A model generated the notes under the pieces. The model did not search any database, was not told the DNA's origin, and saw only the letters and a program-made list of their open reading frames with translations. Source: Flavobacteriales bacterium (GTDB lineage: Bacteria; Bacteroidota; Bacteroidia; NS11-12g; UBA955). From it: a stretch of 41,515 nucleotides of DNA. Position numbers and translations under genes: made by a program. Positions 6,201 to 31,302 of this stretch are shown here, in pieces. Location of the stretch: NCBI GenBank assembly GCA_947487175.1, contig CANKVM010000014.1, positions 1-41,515 on the forward strand. Direction: 5' to 3'. Position 1 is the stretch's first letter. Every line of letters begins with the position of its first letter.

Positions 6201-7596
6201 CATGAGAACTGTTATTAAAGAAGTTACTGATGATTCAACTGGTGATATCAAGCAAACAGAAATCGTATTGGGTCGTTCAGGTGAAATTAGAATCTTAGAT
6301 CCTAAAACCAAAACTATTATCACAAGTTTCAACGTACCTTATGGTGCGCATCTTTTGGTAAAAGAAGGAATGAAGGTGAAAAAAGGTGATAAAATGTGTA
6401 CTTGGGATCCATTTAACACGTTGATTATATCTGATATTGATGGTGCCGTAAGTTACGAGCAAATCATTGAAGGTATTAACATGCGTGAAGAAGGTGATGA
6501 GCAAACAGGATTGTCAGAATTGGTAATCATTGAGAGCAAAGACAAAACCAAAGTACCAGTTATTCGCGTTGAGGGTGAAGAAGGAACAGTTAAAACGTTT
6601 AACATGCCTTTGAAAGCAATTTTGGTAGCTAAGAAAAATGCCGTTATTAAAGCCGGTGATATTTTGGCTAAAATTCCAAGAAGTGCTACAAGAACCCGTG
6701 ATATCACAGGTGGTCTTCCTCGTGTAACTGAATTATTTGAGGCTAGAAATCCTTCAAATCCAGCCGTTGTTGCTGAAATTGATGGTATCGTAACCTATGG
6801 TATTTCAAAAAGAGGTAACCAAGAAATTATCATTAACTCTAAAGATGGAGAAGTGAAGCACTATCAAGTTGCTTTGTCTAAGCACATTTTGGTGCATGAT
6901 GGTGATTATGTTCGCGCAGGTCAACCTTTGTCAGATGGTGCTATTACCCCTCAAGATATCTTAAGAATTGAAGGTCCAGCTTCAGTACAACGTTATGTAT
7001 TAAATGGAATTCAAGAGGTTTACAACCTTCAGGGTGTAAAAATCAACGATAAGCATATTGAAGTAATTGTACGTCAAATGATGCAAAAAATGGAAATTAT
7101 GGATCCAGGAGATACGCGTTTCCTTGAAAGTGAAGCCGTTGATAAATGGACTTTGCAAAGAGAAAATGATTGGATTTATGACAAGAAGTTTGTAAGTGAT
7201 GCAGGCGAAAGTACTGAAATGCATGCTGGACAGATTGTAAGTTTGAAAGACTTACGTCAAGAAAATAGCGCATTGCGTCGTCAAGATAAAAAAGTGGTAC
7301 AATACCGTGATGCAGTTCCTGCAACAGCAACTCCAATTTTGCAAGGTATTACCAAAGCGTCTTTGGGTACTCAAAGCTTTATGAGTGCTGCTTCTTTCCA
7401 AGAAACTACAAAAGTTTTGAATGAAGCCGCAATTTCTGGTAAAGTAGATGAGTTAAGAGGTTTGAAAGAAAATGTAATCGTAGGTCACTTAATTCCAGCG
7501 GGTACAGGTATGCGTCGTTTCGACAACGTAGTAACTGGATCGCTAGAAGAATACGAACGTTTGATGGCAACCAAATACGAAGAAGAGGAAGCTTAA
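3298..7596 (+). CDS. rpoC: DNA-directed RNA polymerase subunit beta'
   Basis: Largest subunit of RNA polymerase, 1432 residues, complete. The N-terminal zinc site uses C67, C69, C82 and C85. The catalytic Mg2+ loop NADFDGDQM carries the three aspartates D473, D475 and D477. A second zinc site is visible as C820, C894, C901 and C904. The trigger-loop region ([16 protein letters not shown]) follows. The ATG at 3298 gives the expected N terminus, 19 bases after the rpoB stop, so the two are co-transcribed. A strong hairpin terminator follows the stop codon. Length is normal for Bacteroidota. Confidence 0.99.
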
Positions 7597-7646: not shown

Positions 7647-7682
7647 TTTAGACAGTTTAGACGGATTAAACAGAATAGACGG
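7647..7682. repeat. Four-unit 9-nt tandem repeat (TTAGAC family), third copy
   Basis: Four consecutive 9-base units: TTTAGACAG, TTTAGACGG, ATTAAACAG and AATAGACGG, followed by ATT. It begins two bases after the T tract of the rpoC terminator. The same 9-mer, also in four units and also followed by ATT, occurs at 26341-26376 (minus orientation) and 31165-31200. This copy is the most diverged and lacks the mini-hairpin half found at the other two sites. Confidence 0.8.
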
Positions 7683-7776
7683 ATTCAATTGAATTGCTTG
7701 TATATTCAATTAATACGTTTAATCACATATTGATATGGTTCGTTAAAATAAGTTATTTTTCTTATTTACAATGTCC

Positions 7777-25087: not shown

Positions 25088-25321
25088 ATGCCATTAGCAC
25101 ATAAAATAGAATCCGTTTTAGATACCATTCGTCCCTATTTACAAGCCGATGGTGGTGATGTTGAGTTGGTAGAAGTTCAAAGCAATAACGATGTTATTCT
25201 GCGCCTTACTGGTGCTTGCAGTAGTTGCTCAATGAGTGAAATGACCATGACGGCGGGTATTGAAGAGAGCTTACGCAAGTCTATTCCAGATTTAGGTAAA
25301 ATTGTCGCAATTAAAGAATAA
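25088..25321 (+). CDS. NifU-like (Nfu) iron-sulfur scaffold protein
   Basis: A 77-residue single Nfu domain. The pattern is complete: IRPYLQADGGDVELVEV, then RLTGACSSCSMSEMTMTAGIEESLRKSIPD, with the C-x-x-C pair that binds a bridging 4Fe-4S cluster between two subunits. It carries no N-terminal A-type domain, unlike NfuA of E. coli. It lies directly after mrp, a frequent pairing, and has its own promoter. Confidence 0.93.
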   Translation: MPLAHKIESVLDTIRPYLQADGGDVELVEVQSNNDVILRLTGACSSCSMSEMTMTAGIEESLRKSIPDLGKIVAIKE

Positions 25322-26198
25322 ATATTACCAAAATTTACTCATTCAACTGCTAGGAATACCCCTTCCTGCTGTTGTATTGACAATTGTATTGTTGAAAAAC
25401 AATGTTCCTGTTTATGAGGTATTTCAATCTTATTCAACCTCTGAAAATGCAAATATTCAGCTCCCAATTTTTGGAGCCATGTTTTTGTTCGCATCTACTT
25501 TGATTATTTATGCTTTGGATTTTTTGAGGGACATGGCCTTTTGGAAAAAATCGGAAATGCAAATTCCTAAATTTGGCAAATTACTTTCTATCGGTTATGT
25601 TATTTTGGGATCCGTTGTCATTGTTGGTTTGGTTATCACCATGATCAAAAATGGCGAGGCAAAAATGATACTCGTTGGTGATGGAATAAAAGGATACTTA
25701 AATGGGTATACTTCTTTAATAATTGGGTTGTTGGGAATTTTTGTGATTATCAAAAGTTCACCCAAACAATATGCAGCCGTGTTCTCTCCATTGATTATTG
25801 CACTAGTGGCATCTATGTCGGTTTTTGCACCAATTTATTTGATATCGGACATAGATGGATTTAAATTATCGGGGGATTTTATTCAGCCTTTAACGTCGTA
25901 CTTTTTGTTATTTTTGGCGAATGTTATTACAGTTTCTTTTTTCGAGAAGGAGAAAGATGCTGAAGGCAATACCCATAATATTTGGAATACCCATGAAAGC
26001 GTGGCAAGAGCTGTCATTTTTGTCGTTCCAACATTGATGATTTTACTGCATTGTTTTTTTTATTGGAATATTCAACAGCATTCTATTTTTTATGTATTTG
26101 CCATTTATTTGTTCATGTATTATTTTCCTTCGTTTTTTAGAGGGTTTTCGGTTTACAGAATTGTTATTGATTTGGCGTTGTTGCTCGTCTGTATTTAG
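25302..26198 (+). CDS. Polytopic membrane protein of unknown function
   Basis: I do not recognise this 298-residue protein. It has about eight hydrophobic segments (near residues 12-30, 54-72, 92-112, 128-148, 158-180, 195-212, 235-255 and 262-296), few charged residues and no enzyme motif. The reading frame opens at a TTG (25302) that overlaps the nifU end by 20 bases. The first in-frame ATG would remove 59 residues including a membrane helix, so TTG or another non-ATG start is more likely, with coupling to nifU. The end (FRGFSVYRIVIDLALLLVCI) faintly recalls small UbiA-like proteins, but the Asp-rich motifs of that family are absent. Its TAG abuts the composite repeat element. Confidence 0.7.
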   Translation: MSQLKNKYYQNLLIQLLGIPLPAVVLTIVLLKNNVPVYEVFQSYSTSENANIQLPIFGAMFLFASTLIIYALDFLRDMAFWKKSEMQIPKFGKLLSIGYVILGSVVIVGLVITMIKNGEAKMILVGDGIKGYLNGYTSLIIGLLGIFVIIKSSPKQYAAVFSPLIIALVASMSVFAPIYLISDIDGFKLSGDFIQPLTSYFLLFLANVITVSFFEKEKDAEGNTHNIWNTHESVARAVIFVVPTLMILLHCFFYWNIQQHSIFYVFAIYLFMYYFPSFFRGFSVYRIVIDLALLLVCI

Positions 26199-26377
26199 TG
26201 CACTTCGTGCGTTTACGCCTTTGGCTGTTTACGCTACGCTGTTTACGCCTTCGGCTGTTTCACCTTCGGTGGTTGACGCTTTGCTGTTTAGGGTTCAGAC
26301 CTAACAACTTTTATAAACCTTCTAATTTCCATAAACCAATCTGTCTAACCCTTCTAATCTGTCTAATCCGTCTAACC
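26199..26377. repeat. Composite intergenic element, copy A (mini-hairpin array plus 9-nt repeat)
   Basis: Fills the whole gap between two convergent stop codons. Bases 26200-26290 hold six mini-hairpins spaced every 14-16 bases and separated by GTTTA-like linkers: GCAC-TTCG-TGC, GCC-TTTG-GC, GC-TAC-GC, GCC-TTCG-GC, CACC-TTCG-GTG and GC-TTT-GC. A 45-base AT-rich joint follows. Then come four 9-nt units (26341-26376; on the minus strand GTTAGACGG, ATTAGACAG, ATTAGAAGG, GTTAGACAG) ending one base from the tdk stop. A second copy in inverted orientation is at 31165-31302. Confidence 0.85.
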
Positions 26378-26911
26378 CTATTTCTGCCAATGCTCCAAAC
26401 ATCTTGGTTCATAAATATTGTTATGACCTACTAAAATGAGTTCGTCGGATTCGATATTGCGAAAAGTGTAATCTGCTTTTTGATTGCAAACTTTGCATTT
26501 TGCTGAAACTTGAATGTGGGTGGTTGCAAGTTTTTTTAGAATTGGCATCGGACCAAAATCATTGTTTAGATAATCTTTATCTAATCCAGCGGCAACCACT
26601 TTGATGTTGTTGCTTAATAGTTCGCCAATGACATCTAAAATCATGGGGCCCATGAATTGAATCTCGTCAATATAAACTTCTTTTAAATTTGGATGTATCA
26701 ACGGATAAATTTCTTCGGCTTTGCCTATTCTATGGGCAATGAGTGATAATCCGCCATGTGAATGAATTAACTGTGCTGAATAGCGATTATCGATAAGCGG
26801 CTTCACCGCTAATTTTTCGTTGATATCTATTTGGCTTTCGTTGTAGAGCCCAATTAAACGGGTGGTTTTCCCCGCAAACATACAGCCAAAAATAAGTGTA
26901 AAATCTCTCAT
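26378..26911 (-). CDS. tdk: Thymidine kinase (type II)
   Basis: Makes dTMP from thymidine and ATP in salvage. The 177-residue protein has the P-loop GCMFAGKTT at residues 9-17, the Walker B-like YIDEIQFMG, the lasso loop VAAGLDKDYLNNDFGPM, and zinc-binding cysteines in CKVCNQKA and in YEPRCLEHW. The normal first residue of the loop motif GPMFSGKT is changed (GCMFAGKT), within the variation seen in the family. Length is slightly short for type II enzymes (about 190). It is transcribed alone, convergent with the membrane protein gene, and its TAG is one base from the 9-nt repeat. Confidence 0.95.
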   Translation of the reverse strand: MRDFTLIFGCMFAGKTTRLIGLYNESQIDINEKLAVKPLIDNRYSAQLIHSHGGLSLIAHRIGKAEEIYPLIHPNLKEVYIDEIQFMGPMILDVIGELLSNNIKVVAAGLDKDYLNNDFGPMPILKKLATTHIQVSAKCKVCNQKADYTFRNIESDELILVGHNNIYEPRCLEHWQK

Positions 26912-26962
26912 ATTTTAATAAAATCAGCGTTGTAATTTCCCCGAAATTTTAGTAATTAGATC

Positions 26963-27796
26963 ATGAACTCAAGAATCACCGAAATTCTAGAAAATTTAGC
27001 AATATTAAGCCAAGCTTTGCATTCAGACCAAAAAAATGTAAATACAATTGACATTTTGGGCGAAATTAAATTGTTGTCGGCTCAATTGTATTTAGAATCT
27101 GATATGGAAATTATTACTTCCAACAAACCTGAGGAAGTTCCTGTTTTTGAGGAAGAAACAAATGAAAATGATTCAACGGAAGAGTTATTTGATGAAGTTC
27201 CAGTTTTTACATTAGTAAAGAATGACCCTGAGCCTGAAATTGAAGAAATTGAAATAGAGGAGAATCCATCAATTGAAAATAATATTGAAGAAGATTTGCA
27301 AGTTTCGCAAGAGATTGACCCTGAAATTACTCCAGAAATAGTAACTCAAGTTCATTTTACACAAACCACAATTAAAATTGAAAACAATCCTACCTTGTTT
27401 GACGAATTAGAGCCTGAATTGACTTTGGAAGAAGCGGAGGATATTGCTAATGAAGTCATTGCAGAAGAGGTTATAGCTGTTTCTATTGTTGAGTCGAAGG
27501 TGGAAAATGAAATCATCATGCCTCCAACTGTTCAAGAAAACATGAAAAAAGCTGAAGCTGCAGCAAATGCCAATTCCATAATTGGGCAGTTTTCTTTAAC
27601 CCGTAGATATGAATTCATGAATTTCTTGTTTGCAGGGGATATGAATAAATTTATTGTATTTGTTTCTGAAATGTTAAGCGCTCCTGCCGGAGAATTGCGA
27701 GAATCAGTTTACGAAAAGTGGTACGATGAAAATCAGTGGAGTAGAAAGTATGAAACTGCTGCCGATTTGAAGAAGAACTTAAGTAAATTATTGTAA
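26963..27796 (+). CDS. Acidic protein with conserved C-terminal domain, function unknown
   Basis: A 277-residue protein in three parts. Residues 1-45 form a helical start (ITEILENLAILSQALHSD). Residues 50-190 are very rich in Glu with Pro/Val/Ile and likely disordered. The C-terminal part, about 195-277, is ordered: SLTRRYEFMNFLFAGDMNKFIVFVSEMLSAP, then YEKWYDENQWSRKYETAADLKKNL. I have seen this ending (LTRR-x-EF-x-NxLF-x-GD) in Bacteroidota proteins of unknown role. No signal peptide or membrane segment is seen, so it is probably cytoplasmic. It lies 31 bases before comEC on the same strand. Confidence 0.75.
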   Translation: MNSRITEILENLAILSQALHSDQKNVNTIDILGEIKLLSAQLYLESDMEIITSNKPEEVPVFEEETNENDSTEELFDEVPVFTLVKNDPEPEIEEIEIEENPSIENNIEEDLQVSQEIDPEITPEIVTQVHFTQTTIKIENNPTLFDELEPELTLEEAEDIANEVIAEEVIAVSIVESKVENEIIMPPTVQENMKKAEAAANANSIIGQFSLTRRYEFMNFLFAGDMNKFIVFVSEMLSAPAGELRESVYEKWYDENQWSRKYETAADLKKNLSKLL

Positions 27797-27827
27797 GCGA
27801 TTTTTTTGTCTTGGAGCATTTGTTCCA

Positions 27828-29615
27828 ATGATAAAAAAAATTCTCGCTCAGTGGCCTTTTTACCTGCCTTTATTAGGAATACTTTTTGGTTTTTTTATAT
27901 CCAATCATATTCAAATACAAGCAACATTTTTGCTTGTATTCTTGGTTATAATTGTGTGCTTTTTTATTTACCAGATTTTCCCCAATTGGAAGTTTGCTTA
28001 TTTTGTTTTTTTGCTTTTTGCTTTTTGTGGATACATCCGGCAAAGTCAAGTTGAAAAACAATTACAATATAATCTTCAGCTTGCTAAGAAATCAAATTGT
28101 GTAAAATTTTTGGTTTCGCAAGATTTGGGTAATCGCAATAAGTGGCATAGATATGAGTGTGAATTGACGTATGCCTTAGGTACTCAATGTTGGATTCCTT
28201 TCCGAAATTGCATGGTTGATTTATATGTGAAAGACAATCCGAATTTGTTGGAAGGACATTATTACAGTTTGAATAAGTTCAATTTTAAGCAATTTGAAAA
28301 TCCTGTGCTGCCCGGTGATTTTAATTTTAAGTCCCTCAAAAATGCCAGAAAATTCATAGGAATCACATTTGCCCGAAATTCTCAAGTTTTCGTGAGCAAT
28401 ACCAAGGTGAATCAATGGATAGAATTTAGGGCAAGGGTAAAATATAAATTAAATAAGGTTTTTGTTGAGGGACTTTCTGTAGAGAATTTGGCCTTAGTGA
28501 GGCAATTAATCTGGGGCGACAAAACCCAAATTGATGAGGATTTGAAAACTGCTTTTCAAGTAAGTGGCACCACCCATGTTTTGTCGGTTTCGGGGATGCA
28601 TATTGCATTGCTTTTTGCGTTTATTTCCTTTTTGGTTGAAACTATTTCACTGCGAAAACAAAAGAGTAAAATGGTCCAACTGTGCATTATTCCATTGCTC
28701 TGGATATATGCATTTTTTACAGGCTTTTCTGCGCCAGTAATTCGGGCAGTTGGCTTTTTTACTTATTACCTTTTGGGCAATGTTCTTTATGGAAGGAAAC
28801 TTAAATTATTACATGTTCTTATGGTTGTAAGTATTATTCAATTATTGGCAAATCCTTTGTCACTATGGGATATTGGGTTCCAACTATCTTATTTGGCAGT
28901 ATTAGGTTTGTCAACTGTGTTGCCATTTATTAAAGGATTTTATGAGGATAGACCTTACTGGCAAAGGTTGATTTTGGATGCTTTTGCAATTAGCATAAGT
29001 AGCACCATCACAACATACCCTTTGTCACTTTATTGCTTTCATCAATTTTCAGTGTGGTTTTTACTGGGCAATTTATTGTTGTTGCCAATGTTTACATTGC
29101 TTATGTATTGGCTATTTATGATGGTGTTTTTGACAGCCTTTTCTGTGCCACTTCACTGGGTGGTTTTTGCCTTGAACAAATACCTAAACGCAATAACTTG
29201 GGTAATGAAATTATCAAATAAACTGCCTAGCCAATTTGTTTTTTCATATGGATTTGACGAAGTTAACTTATTCATTCATCTGCTTTTGATTCATTTTGTT
29301 TTCTATTTGTTTTATAGCAATCACCGATTAAGTTATTGGTCCGTTGTATTGGTTCTGATTTTTAACTTTTTTGTATTTTTAGCCTGTCGTGAGTTTCGAA
29401 AAAGGGCTGAATTCTGTGGCAAGATTGAACTGCCTGAAGGGTATTTCGAAGTGAATAAACAAGGAAATCAGTTAACTGTAATTACTGCAGACAGTATCCC
29501 TCAAAATAAATTAATAAAGCGGTTGGATTATGTAATTCATTCCTATTCGATTGATAGTTTAAAAATCATTAGGGCTAGGCCAATATTGAAAAATAGAAAT
29601 ATCACCAAGTTTTAA
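27828..29615 (+). CDS. comEC: ComEC/Rec2 family DNA-uptake channel
   Basis: Inner-membrane channel that brings single-stranded DNA into the cytoplasm during natural transformation. The 595-residue protein has two or three N-terminal helices, a soluble OB-like domain (DUF4131, about 60-200) and the Competence domain (about 215-510) with THVLSVSGMHIALL, the family hallmark. The C-terminal metallo-beta-lactamase domain found in Bacillus ComEC is absent; after the last helix only about 75 residues remain. This shorter form is common in Bacteroidota. The start is ATG at 27828. A ComEA-like protein is encoded at 20825-21589. Confidence 0.93.
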   Translation: MIKKILAQWPFYLPLLGILFGFFISNHIQIQATFLLVFLVIIVCFFIYQIFPNWKFAYFVFLLFAFCGYIRQSQVEKQLQYNLQLAKKSNCVKFLVSQDLGNRNKWHRYECELTYALGTQCWIPFRNCMVDLYVKDNPNLLEGHYYSLNKFNFKQFENPVLPGDFNFKSLKNARKFIGITFARNSQVFVSNTKVNQWIEFRARVKYKLNKVFVEGLSVENLALVRQLIWGDKTQIDEDLKTAFQVSGTTHVLSVSGMHIALLFAFISFLVETISLRKQKSKMVQLCIIPLLWIYAFFTGFSAPVIRAVGFFTYYLLGNVLYGRKLKLLHVLMVVSIIQLLANPLSLWDIGFQLSYLAVLGLSTVLPFIKGFYEDRPYWQRLILDAFAISISSTITTYPLSLYCFHQFSVWFLLGNLLLLPMFTLLMYWLFMMVFLTAFSVPLHWVVFALNKYLNAITWVMKLSNKLPSQFVFSYGFDEVNLFIHLLLIHFVFYLFYSNHRLSYWSVVLVLIFNFFVFLACREFRKRAEFCGKIELPEGYFEVNKQGNQLTVITADSIPQNKLIKRLDYVIHSYSIDSLKIIRARPILKNRNITKF

Positions 29616-29619
29616 GTAT

Positions 29620-29627
29620 TATCTTTG
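29620..29627 (+). promoter_or_regulatory. TAnnTTTG core of the enoyl-CoA hydratase gene
   Basis: TATCTTTG lies 5 bases before the ATG at 29633 and just after the comEC stop, the same layout as at the nifU gene. No TTTG box is found 20 bases upstream. Confidence 0.5.
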
Positions 29628-29632
29628 TATTG

Positions 29633-30403
29633 ATGTCATTGATTCTCACAAATATTGAAAACAGGGTAGGCACAATTGTCCTCAATAGACCCGAAAAACG
29701 AAATGCATTGAGTGCGCAATTAATTGCTGAGCTTACTTATGCGTTTGAATTATTTAACAATGATGATTCGGTGAAATTGATTTTGTTAAAATCGGCTTCA
29801 TTGCCTTTTTGTGCGGGTGCCGATTTGGCTTATCTTACAGAATTAAGAAATTTTACTTTTGAAGAGAATGTTGAAGATAGTACCAAATTGAAAAATTTGT
29901 TTGAGCTCATTTACACATCTCCCAAAATTACCGTATCTCAAGTTGAAGGTCCAGCCTTAGCAGGTGGCTGTGGTTTAGCAACCGTAACTGACTTTTGTTT
30001 TGCTAGTATTGATGCAACATTTGGTTATACGGAAGCGAAAATTGGTTTTTTGCCTGCTTTGGTTATGGTTTATTTGAGAGAAAAAGTGGGAATGGCAATT
30101 ATGTCCGATTGGATGATTACAGGAAGGGTGTTTGACGCAGATGAAGCATTCAATAAGGGACTTATCTATCAATTGTCGAATAGTGATTCAATTGAACATG
30201 ACGTCAAACAATTTATAGATAAATTATTGGTGGGGGTGAGTGGTCAATCTGTAGCTGGAATTAAATATATGCTTCGCAATATGCCAAGCACCCGTCAAGA
30301 TGCATTGAAATTTGCTGCCGAAATGAATGCAATGGCAAGAAGCAGTGATGATTGCAAACGCGGTATTGATGCATTTTTAAATAAAGAGAAATTGTCGTGG
30401 TAA
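29633..30403 (+). CDS. Enoyl-CoA hydratase/isomerase family protein
   Basis: A 256-residue crotonase-fold enzyme. The oxyanion-hole segments are CAGADLAYL (about residues 62-70) and EGPALAGGCGLATVTDF (about 103-119), and FGYTEAKIGFLPA carries the second catalytic Glu position. The first glutamate position of classical hydratases is not obvious (GLATVTDFCFAS), so the exact reaction (hydratase, isomerase or methylglutaconyl-CoA hydratase) is open. The start is the ATG at 29633; a TTG one codon upstream is less likely given the promoter core. It overlaps tatD by 7 bases, so the two are co-expressed. Confidence 0.88.
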   Translation: MSLILTNIENRVGTIVLNRPEKRNALSAQLIAELTYAFELFNNDDSVKLILLKSASLPFCAGADLAYLTELRNFTFEENVEDSTKLKNLFELIYTSPKITVSQVEGPALAGGCGLATVTDFCFASIDATFGYTEAKIGFLPALVMVYLREKVGMAIMSDWMITGRVFDADEAFNKGLIYQLSNSDSIEHDVKQFIDKLLVGVSGQSVAGIKYMLRNMPSTRQDALKFAAEMNAMARSSDDCKRGIDAFLNKEKLSW

Positions 30404-31164
30404 ATATTATTGACACCCATTGCCATTTATACGCTGAAGAATTCAATGACGATAGGGCTGATGCCATTTCAAGAGCCATTGGGCAAGGCATAAGTAAAAT
30501 TTTATTGCCGAACATTGATTTGGATAGTATTGATGGATTACACAGCTTGGCTGATCAATATCCTGATATTTGTATTCCCATGATGGGTTTACATCCTTGT
30601 TATGTGAAAGAAGATTATCAGGAAGTTTTAAATACTATTTTTGATTTGTTTTCTAAAAGAAAATACTGCGCAGTTGGTGAAATTGGAATGGATTTATATT
30701 GGGATAAAACTACCAAAGATTGGCAAGCAGATGCATTCATTCAGCAGGTAGAATTTGCAATTTCTAAGAATTTGCCTTTGGCAATTCATTCTAGAAATGC
30801 TACCTACGAATTGATTGAATTGTTAAAGCCATTCAAAGGAAAAGTAACTGGTGTATTCCATTGTTTTTCTGAGAGCGAAGAATTGGCTAACGAAATTATA
30901 AAATTGAATTTTTTACTTGGCCTTGGGGGTGTGCTTACATTTAAAAATGCTGGTTTGCCATTGGCACTTGCAAAAGTGGATTTAAAGCATATAATTTTAG
31001 AAACCGACAGTCCTTATTTGGCACCAGTTCCATATAGGGGAAAAAGAAACGAGCCAAGTTATACCCGACTCGTTGCTGATAAATTGGCGGAAATAAAAGG
31101 GATTTCTGCTCAGGAAATTTATGAAGTAACCACTGCAAATGCAGTTGGGTTATTTCTTAAATAG
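30397..31164 (+). CDS. TatD-family metal-dependent deoxyribonuclease
   Basis: A 255-residue TIM-barrel hydrolase. The metal ligands are in place: IIDTHCHLY (HxH, residues 7-9), GEIGMDLYWDK (Glu), LAIHSRNA (His), GVFHCFSES (His) and ILETDSPYLAP (Asp), followed by the PYRGKRNEPSY stretch. Family members act as 3'-5' exonucleases on DNA or as D-aminoacyl-tRNA-deacylase-like enzymes. The start is GTG overlapping the hydratase gene by 7 bases. The TAG stop is directly joined to the 9-nt repeat of composite element copy B. Confidence 0.93.
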   Translation: MVNIIDTHCHLYAEEFNDDRADAISRAIGQGISKILLPNIDLDSIDGLHSLADQYPDICIPMMGLHPCYVKEDYQEVLNTIFDLFSKRKYCAVGEIGMDLYWDKTTKDWQADAFIQQVEFAISKNLPLAIHSRNATYELIELLKPFKGKVTGVFHCFSESEELANEIIKLNFLLGLGGVLTFKNAGLPLALAKVDLKHIILETDSPYLAPVPYRGKRNEPSYTRLVADKLAEIKGISAQEIYEVTTANAVGLFLK

Positions 31165-31302
31165 GTTAGACGGATTAGACAGGTTAGACAGGTTAGACAG
31201 ATTGGGTTTATGAAGTTGTGTTTCTGTTTTCTGCTATGTAAACAGCCGAAGGTGTAAACTACCGACGGTGTAAACAGCGAAGCGTCAACGCACGAAGTGC
31301 TA
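31165..31302. repeat. Composite intergenic element, copy B (inverted relative to copy A)
   Basis: Occupies the entire gap between tatD and the convergent glycosyltransferase. Bases 31165-31200 are four 9-nt units (GTTAGACGG, ATTAGACAG, GTTAGACAG, GTTAGACAG) followed by ATTGGGTTTATG, matching copy A read on the other strand. After a 37-base joint, bases 31238-31300 hold four mini-hairpins (minus strand: GCAC-TTCG-TGC, GC-TTC-GC, ACCG-TC-GGT, CC-TTC-GG) separated by GTTTAC-like linkers. Order and orientation relative to the flanking stops are the same as in copy A. Confidence 0.85.

Follow-up and report, generated by a model that had tools for sequence, protein, structure and literature searches.

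Pneumococcal BOX elements are modular, being organized as boxA-[boxB]n-boxC with a variable inner array. BOX, RUP and SPRITE repeats are small, interspersed and intergenic, have proliferated in one species group, and are regarded as parasitic by their describers (PMC3049150). Staphylococcal STAR sequences are, in the abstract of their description, direct repeats scattered over intergenic regions, with expansion and contraction at fixed loci and differences from one species to another (PMC3532100). TAACTGA heptamer repeats have a patchy phylogeny, being found in Beggiatoaceae, Cyanobacteria and some Bacteroidetes, with no known mechanism; they form tandem intergenic arrays, confined to the ends of open reading frames (ORFs) by in-frame stops, and some overlap the stop codon of the upstream gene (PMC4679880). 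Mitochondrial GC clusters, double-hairpin elements and repetitive hairpin elements are likewise small and proliferate in gaps, and in yeast the GC clusters fuse and shuffle to give new composites by an unresolved mechanism (PMC4478555, PMC2800124). A composite repeat comparable to these families fills two gaps between convergent genes in a 41,515-nt stretch (hereafter the window; contig CANKVM010000014.1, assembly GCA_947487175.1) from a Flavobacteriales bacterium. Both gaps probably hold a lineage-specific, non-autonomous composite intergenic repeat, which builds up at the edges of genes and carries stop codons along. The family is apparently undescribed; no description of it was found in the open-access literature, subscription papers and preprints being outside the search.

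Two gene gaps filled from stop to stop

Stop codons are found at 26198 (plus-strand gene), 26378 (tdk, minus strand), 31164 (tatD, plus strand) and 31303 (glycosyltransferase, minus strand), as given by the ORF ends. Hence the gaps are exactly 26199-26377 (gap 1) and 31165-31302 (gap 2). As the initial annotation had stated, and as sequence and ORF stop positions confirm, one composite element occupies both gaps in opposite orientation, filling them from stop to stop. From the tdk or tatD side its order is module A, a joint that includes one B unit or two (GGTTTATAA...), module C and the opposing stop. The parts are the following, together with a third array, absent from the initial annotation, found elsewhere in the window:

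26199..26297, minus strand: module C, an array of mini-hairpins (GCGTAGC, GCCGAAGGC, CACCGAAGGTG and GCACGAAGTGC among others) that adjoins the stop of the plus-strand gene 25302-26198; assigned from the sequence, genome-wide stem covariation and GNA loops
26298..26337, minus strand: joint and module B remnant (GGTTTATAAAAGTTGTTAGG), assigned by alignment
26338..26377, minus strand: module A, four 9-nt units (three TTAGAC, one TTAGAA) beside the tdk stop TAG
31165..31203, plus strand: module A, four TTAGAC units of 9 nt in contact with the tatD stop; the related genome G007 has module B at this site
31204..31236, plus strand: joint with one B unit (GGGTTTATGAAG) and an AT-rich stretch
31237..31302, plus strand: module C mini-hairpins with GTAAAC/GTCAAC spacers, ending at the opposing glycosyltransferase stop
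7648..7690, plus strand: third, degenerate module A array (TTTAGACAGTTTAGACGGATTAAACAG), identified by BLAST and pattern search

Gap 2 together with the tatD stop reads TAG-GTTAGACGGATTAGACAGGTTAGACAGGTTAGACAGATT on the plus strand, GTTAGACGGATTAGACAGGTTAGACAGGTTAGACAGATT making up the four units, followed by GGGTTTATGAAG; the remainder consists of the spaced mini-hairpins. Gap 1 together with the tdk stop reads TAG-G-GTTAGACGG on the minus strand, with one degenerate unit among four. The joint CATAAAC-CAATCTG is common to both, with one extra C in gap 2, and the hairpins are of the same kind. The count of five genes between the copies also held (tdk, an unnamed ORF, comEC, an enoyl-CoA hydratase gene and tatD); the outer flanks are an unnamed ORF and a family 2 glycosyltransferase gene. 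The lack of a usual terminator was likewise confirmed, since the search for terminators (a GC-rich stem directly followed by a T run) gave no match inside either gap. An Rfam search gave no match above the gathering score, the only sub-threshold one (enod40) lying within a coding gene.

A repeat family restricted to one clade

The genome hosting the window (G000) measures 2.42 Mb in 156 contigs. Gap 2 found 74 matches in it by BLAST (best non-self E=1.3e-21), and the two-unit A pattern 90, against 18 for a backward control; the gap element is therefore not a chance arrangement. Module order is fixed: A (9-nt TTAGAC units), B (10-nt GTTTATAA units), joint, and C (array of GNA-loop mini-hairpins). 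The consensus can be written as (RG)(RTTAGACRG)n-RTT for A, (GTTTATAARG)n for B, then the joint, and C-GNA-G triloop hairpins with GT(A/C)AAC spacers for C. This plan, in which the variable joint often ends in AAATTAAAC, was seen in about 35 copies. Some copies miss certain modules, others are doubled or inverted, and several are found where contigs end, which fits repeats that break assemblies. The edges of A arrays are sharp: every one of the 190 arrays examined has a G at -2 relative to the first TTAGAC, and RGATT follows the last unit. Some A arrays are broken by a short palindrome (TTATCCCGAAAGCTTTCGGGA). The small palindrome TCCCGAAAGCTTTCGGGA lies within or beside many A arrays (L076, L082, L062, L068, L114, L170), occurs also in G007, and may be a separate mini-element.

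A arrays were searched for in 57 genomes, comprising G000 itself and members of its genus, family and order; the named records are metagenome-assembled genomes (MAGs) labelled Flavobacteriales or Bacteroidetes. Three-unit matches number 181 in G011 (MAG CANFLS), 93 in G009 (CANFVI), 50 in G000, 6 in G007 (JAIYAW, a pond MAG) and 1 in G006; none were found in the other nine congeners, four of which are at least 96% complete, nor in 43 genomes of other genera. The strict module C pattern was detected in 5 of 70 family genomes, all of the same genus. Because A and C matches are restricted to this genus, the family is a lineage-limited expansion in one clade of a freshwater genus of uncultivated Bacteroidota. 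Matches to the 9-nt pattern in other taxa and in viruses were taken as unrelated, many being in long open frames encoding LD-rich proteins, or in bare arrays without B. Eight related viral contigs from IMG/VR (L098, L100, L101, L104, L106, L108, L109, L111) carry a recurring CAGGTTAGACTGGTTAGACAGGTTAGAC motif outside long open frames, which is probably unrelated to the composite family.

Module C, an array of mini-hairpins probably of the DNA type

By inspection, C units are short hairpins with GNA loops, separated by GTMAAC spacers. Among 352 segments between C spacers, taken from four species, 202 form stems of at least three pairs, compared with about 50 after shuffling. GAA, GCA and GTA predominate among the loops, and a C-G pair closes 156 of the 202 stems. 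Segments 11 nt long number 82; Watson-Crick pairing occurs at their three stem positions 73, 78 and 77 times, respectively (shuffle means 40.5, 39.5 and 75.2), with C-G (40) and G-C (38) almost equally frequent at the middle pair. Stem covariation in C units is real, as pairing above the shuffle level and the near-even middle pair denote true structures. Triloops of the GNA type with a C-G closing pair, d(GCGAAGC) being an example, form extra-stable DNA mini-hairpins, a motif also employed in aptamers, and short stems with such loops are less special as RNA than as DNA. Folds of the whole gaps, as DNA or RNA, are no more stable than those of shuffled sequences (RNA z -0.25 to -0.71), so the signal sits in individual mini-hairpins. 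On both grounds a structured DNA strand is the more natural reading of the C arrays, though this falls short of proof.

Empty sites and capture of stop codons

The tdk gap spans 3 bp in G006, element-free at this site, and 143-268 bp in the four carriers G000, G007, G009 and G011. The joint GGTTTATAAAAGTTGTTAGG is alignable across all four, so this copy is one old insertion; judged by the alignment, the segment 26298..26337 is its oldest shared part. Module A is found in three of them and is missing at the tdk gene end of the sister G007. Similarly, an insertion of about 197 nt with module A precedes a gene named by eye as ruvX in G011, and is absent from G007. The gap between tatD and the glycosyltransferase gene has no element in G006 and G004. 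A small gene, which we take by eye to be of HMA type, lies in this gap in G006, G009 and G011 (L217, L216, L219) and is missing from G000 and G007; these two retain the element alone, and deletion between flanking direct repeats is a possible cause of the loss. The order and orientation of genes from the one preceding tdk to tatD and the glycosyltransferase gene are identical in G009, G011, G007 and G006, and give no sign of the inversion of the 5-kb segment that had been envisaged.

Comparisons with G007 cover about half of that genome, and clean empty sites are few. G007 counterparts exist for 13 sites that bear A: B units occupy 9 of these counterparts, A is found at 2, and the other 2 have neither. 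Genes ending at an A array in the trio G000/G009/G011, and having a G007 ortholog, form 15 pairs corresponding to 6 distinct genes. In G007, A is missing from all 15, and B-type repeats stand at the stop or immediately behind it. The length of the C-terminus differs in 14/15 pairs (5/6 genes), against 15/141 control genes; tdk and tatD are each two codons shorter than their G007 orthologs. In one gene, the first TTAGAC supplies the TAG that ends the trio proteins, and the G007 stop is the TAA within the first GGTTTATAA. The contact of the element with stop codons results from small ancestral gaps, tolerated insertion at gene ends, and in-frame stops within modules. The same in-frame-stop argument was made by MacGregor for TAACTGA repeats (PMC4679880).

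Placement among genes

The gap counts cover roughly 460 kb from G011 and 311 kb from G000, in which genes were called by a purpose-written codon-usage model. Elements occur in 13/67 convergent, 20/326 tandem and 9/93 divergent gaps; G000 contigs had partly been picked for holding copies, which inflates the absolute frequencies in that genome and affects the comparison among gap types less. Convergent gaps are enriched relative to all others (13/67 vs 29/419; odds ratio 3.2, p=0.0035), with p=0.007 in G000 alone and p=0.08 in G011 alone. Element-bearing gaps are nevertheless tandem or divergent in 29 of 42 cases. The initial annotation had suggested a mobile element targeting convergent 3' ends: dispersal, mobility and a convergent bias are borne out, targeting is not, and a placement of all copies between convergent genes, which a tabulation was to check, had to be discarded with 13 of 42 gaps convergent. 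Midpoints of A motifs fall within called genes in 6/98 cases in G011 and 1/31 in G000. Median lengths of convergent, tandem and divergent gaps are 216, 250 and 366 bp with the element, and 64, 51 and 122 bp without it. The genes located between elements are ordinary core genes. A 14-kb hot spot was noticed in G011 (L229, G011:C1:60500-75000), where most gaps between core genes, presumably prfA, rpoN, rbfA, pth, aroQ, purQ and others as named by eye, host A or C arrays, often as a pair of A arrays on opposite strands.

Origin of the repeats and alternative explanations

The family is most likely a parasitic repeat. Elements made of B and C would have settled between genes in the ancestor of G000, G007, G009 and G011, and A would then have multiplied in the lineage leading to G000, G009 and G011, entering between stop codon and B, at the gene-proximal edge, and replacing or pushing back the native stop. 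If ancestral gaps were a few bases wide, an insertion tolerated by both genes would have to lie at the stops, and in-frame stops carried by the modules could be adopted as those of the gene. The convergent bias is what purifying selection against insertion in promoters and 5' regions might produce. Copying probably proceeds via a single-stranded DNA intermediate or template switching at hairpins, step and enzyme both being surmised. That the repeats represent a new class of mobile DNA, in which an array of GNA-triloop hairpins is copied as a single strand while the edge modules A and B dock at gene ends, swap and replace stops, is a tentative and rather doubtful extension.

A number of results weigh against a parasitic, non-autonomous repeat. 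Y1/RAYT transposases (PF01797) are absent from G000, G007, G009 and G011, control genomes being positive, and PF01797 is present only in G013, which has no A arrays. Reverse transcriptases are absent from the carriers. No integron integrase (TIGR02249) scores above the cut-off in 14 genomes, and control genomes have similar sub-threshold matches. No consistent target-site duplication could be established. Module sequence is found in both species at 146/171 orthologous flank pairs, so that positions are mostly inherited, content turns over and current mobility is low. Finally, A arrays of four units outnumber those of any other length in G009 and G011, a possible hint of selection on the array.

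As an alternative, the arrays may be bound by a protein that organises the chromosome or binds RNA, with selection on their position at gene ends. Three observations favour this: positions are kept while the array type goes from B to A, four units are preferred in two species, and several loci are occupied in G007 too. We know of no binding protein of this kind, content and copy number change fast, and A arrays are lacking in nine congeners, including the four nearly complete ones; this explanation seems quite improbable. Hardly better placed, and unlikely in our opinion, is a functional role as bidirectional terminator or 3'-end stabiliser, proposed at the outset, in which C hairpins in both convergent RNAs would stop or protect transcripts. 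The two window gaps without other terminator and the convergent bias are in its favour. Element-free convergent gaps of at least 30 bp are richer in intrinsic terminators than element-bearing ones (28/41 vs 11/42, p=0.0002), a misleading contrast, because gaps of this size largely exist as they hold terminators. When all element-free convergent pairs are taken as baseline, including short and overlapping ones that are likely insertion targets, the apparent deficit vanishes (28/106 vs 11/42, p=1), and the idea of a terminator substitute was rejected. That gaps 1 and 2 lack a terminator is thus not informative. Most copies are in tandem or divergent gaps, A arrays in tandem gaps share the direction of the genes in 11 cases and oppose it in 6, and some copies directly follow a normal terminator (L067, L068, L073 and the window array 7648-7690, which comes after a strong one, GGGCTACCTAAATGGTAGCCC-TTTTTTT, downstream of a gene ending at 7596). 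RNA folds of the gaps are unexceptional, as said, and loop and closing-pair preferences fit DNA mini-hairpins.

Mobilization by known enzymes has little to recommend it. Being hairpin-rich, dispersed, intergenic, composite and patchy between species, the repeats resemble the BIMEs formed by REPs that RAYT (Y1/HUH) transposases mobilise (PMC2817692). Such an origin is very improbable: the hairpins read, by inspection and with no dedicated search for the GTAG or CGTC tag, as short array units and not as tagged palindromes of 20-40 nt, and the PF01797 gene would have to lie in a part missing from all four carrier assemblies. Even less credit can be given to a tyrosine-recombinase system, similar to integron attC, with folded single-stranded hairpins as recombination sites. 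C arrays are single-strand hairpins, and a 351-aa Xer/XerA-type tyrosine recombinase (L075:954-2009, G000:C55) is encoded in G000 at some 90 nt from an A array. Its score is below the integron integrase cut-off (165.6 vs 265), G009 and G011 have no comparable standout match, and core genes separate the elements; the vicinity is probably coincidental.

Comparison with known systems

Small intergenic repeats are common, but three uncommon traits are combined in the family described here: it is a composite of three array types in fixed order; stems covary while loops obey the GNA rule known from DNA mini-hairpins of exceptional stability; and edge arrays are exchanged at the same gene ends, where stop codons are re-set. 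Nine congeners free of A arrays, G006 with one, G007 with six and three species with many provide a natural series, in which it can be followed how hairpin repeats apparently devoid of an enzyme spread and change protein ends.

In common with BOX, RUP and STAR, copies are many, dispersed and mostly intergenic, and they are present or absent at orthologous sites (tdk in G006, ruvX in G007, A-free gene ends in G007). Differently from STAR, as the abstract describes it (PMC3532100), the elements supply stop codons and include a covarying mini-hairpin array. TAACTGA repeats differ in having a 7-nt unit of other sequence, mostly located just upstream of start codons, and the available part of the report mentions no multi-module composite (PMC4679880). 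REP/BIME sequences associated with RAYTs (PMC2817692) are similarly hairpin-based composite mosaics in gene gaps, but the carriers analyzed here have no Y1 transposase, and the hairpin type is different. Mitochondrial hairpin elements are organellar, with no known tie to stop codons and no A/B arrays. BOX, compared by description, is also a modular intergenic repeat; the present family is distinguished from it by two different short arrays joined to a mini-hairpin array, and by its occurrence in an unrelated phylum.

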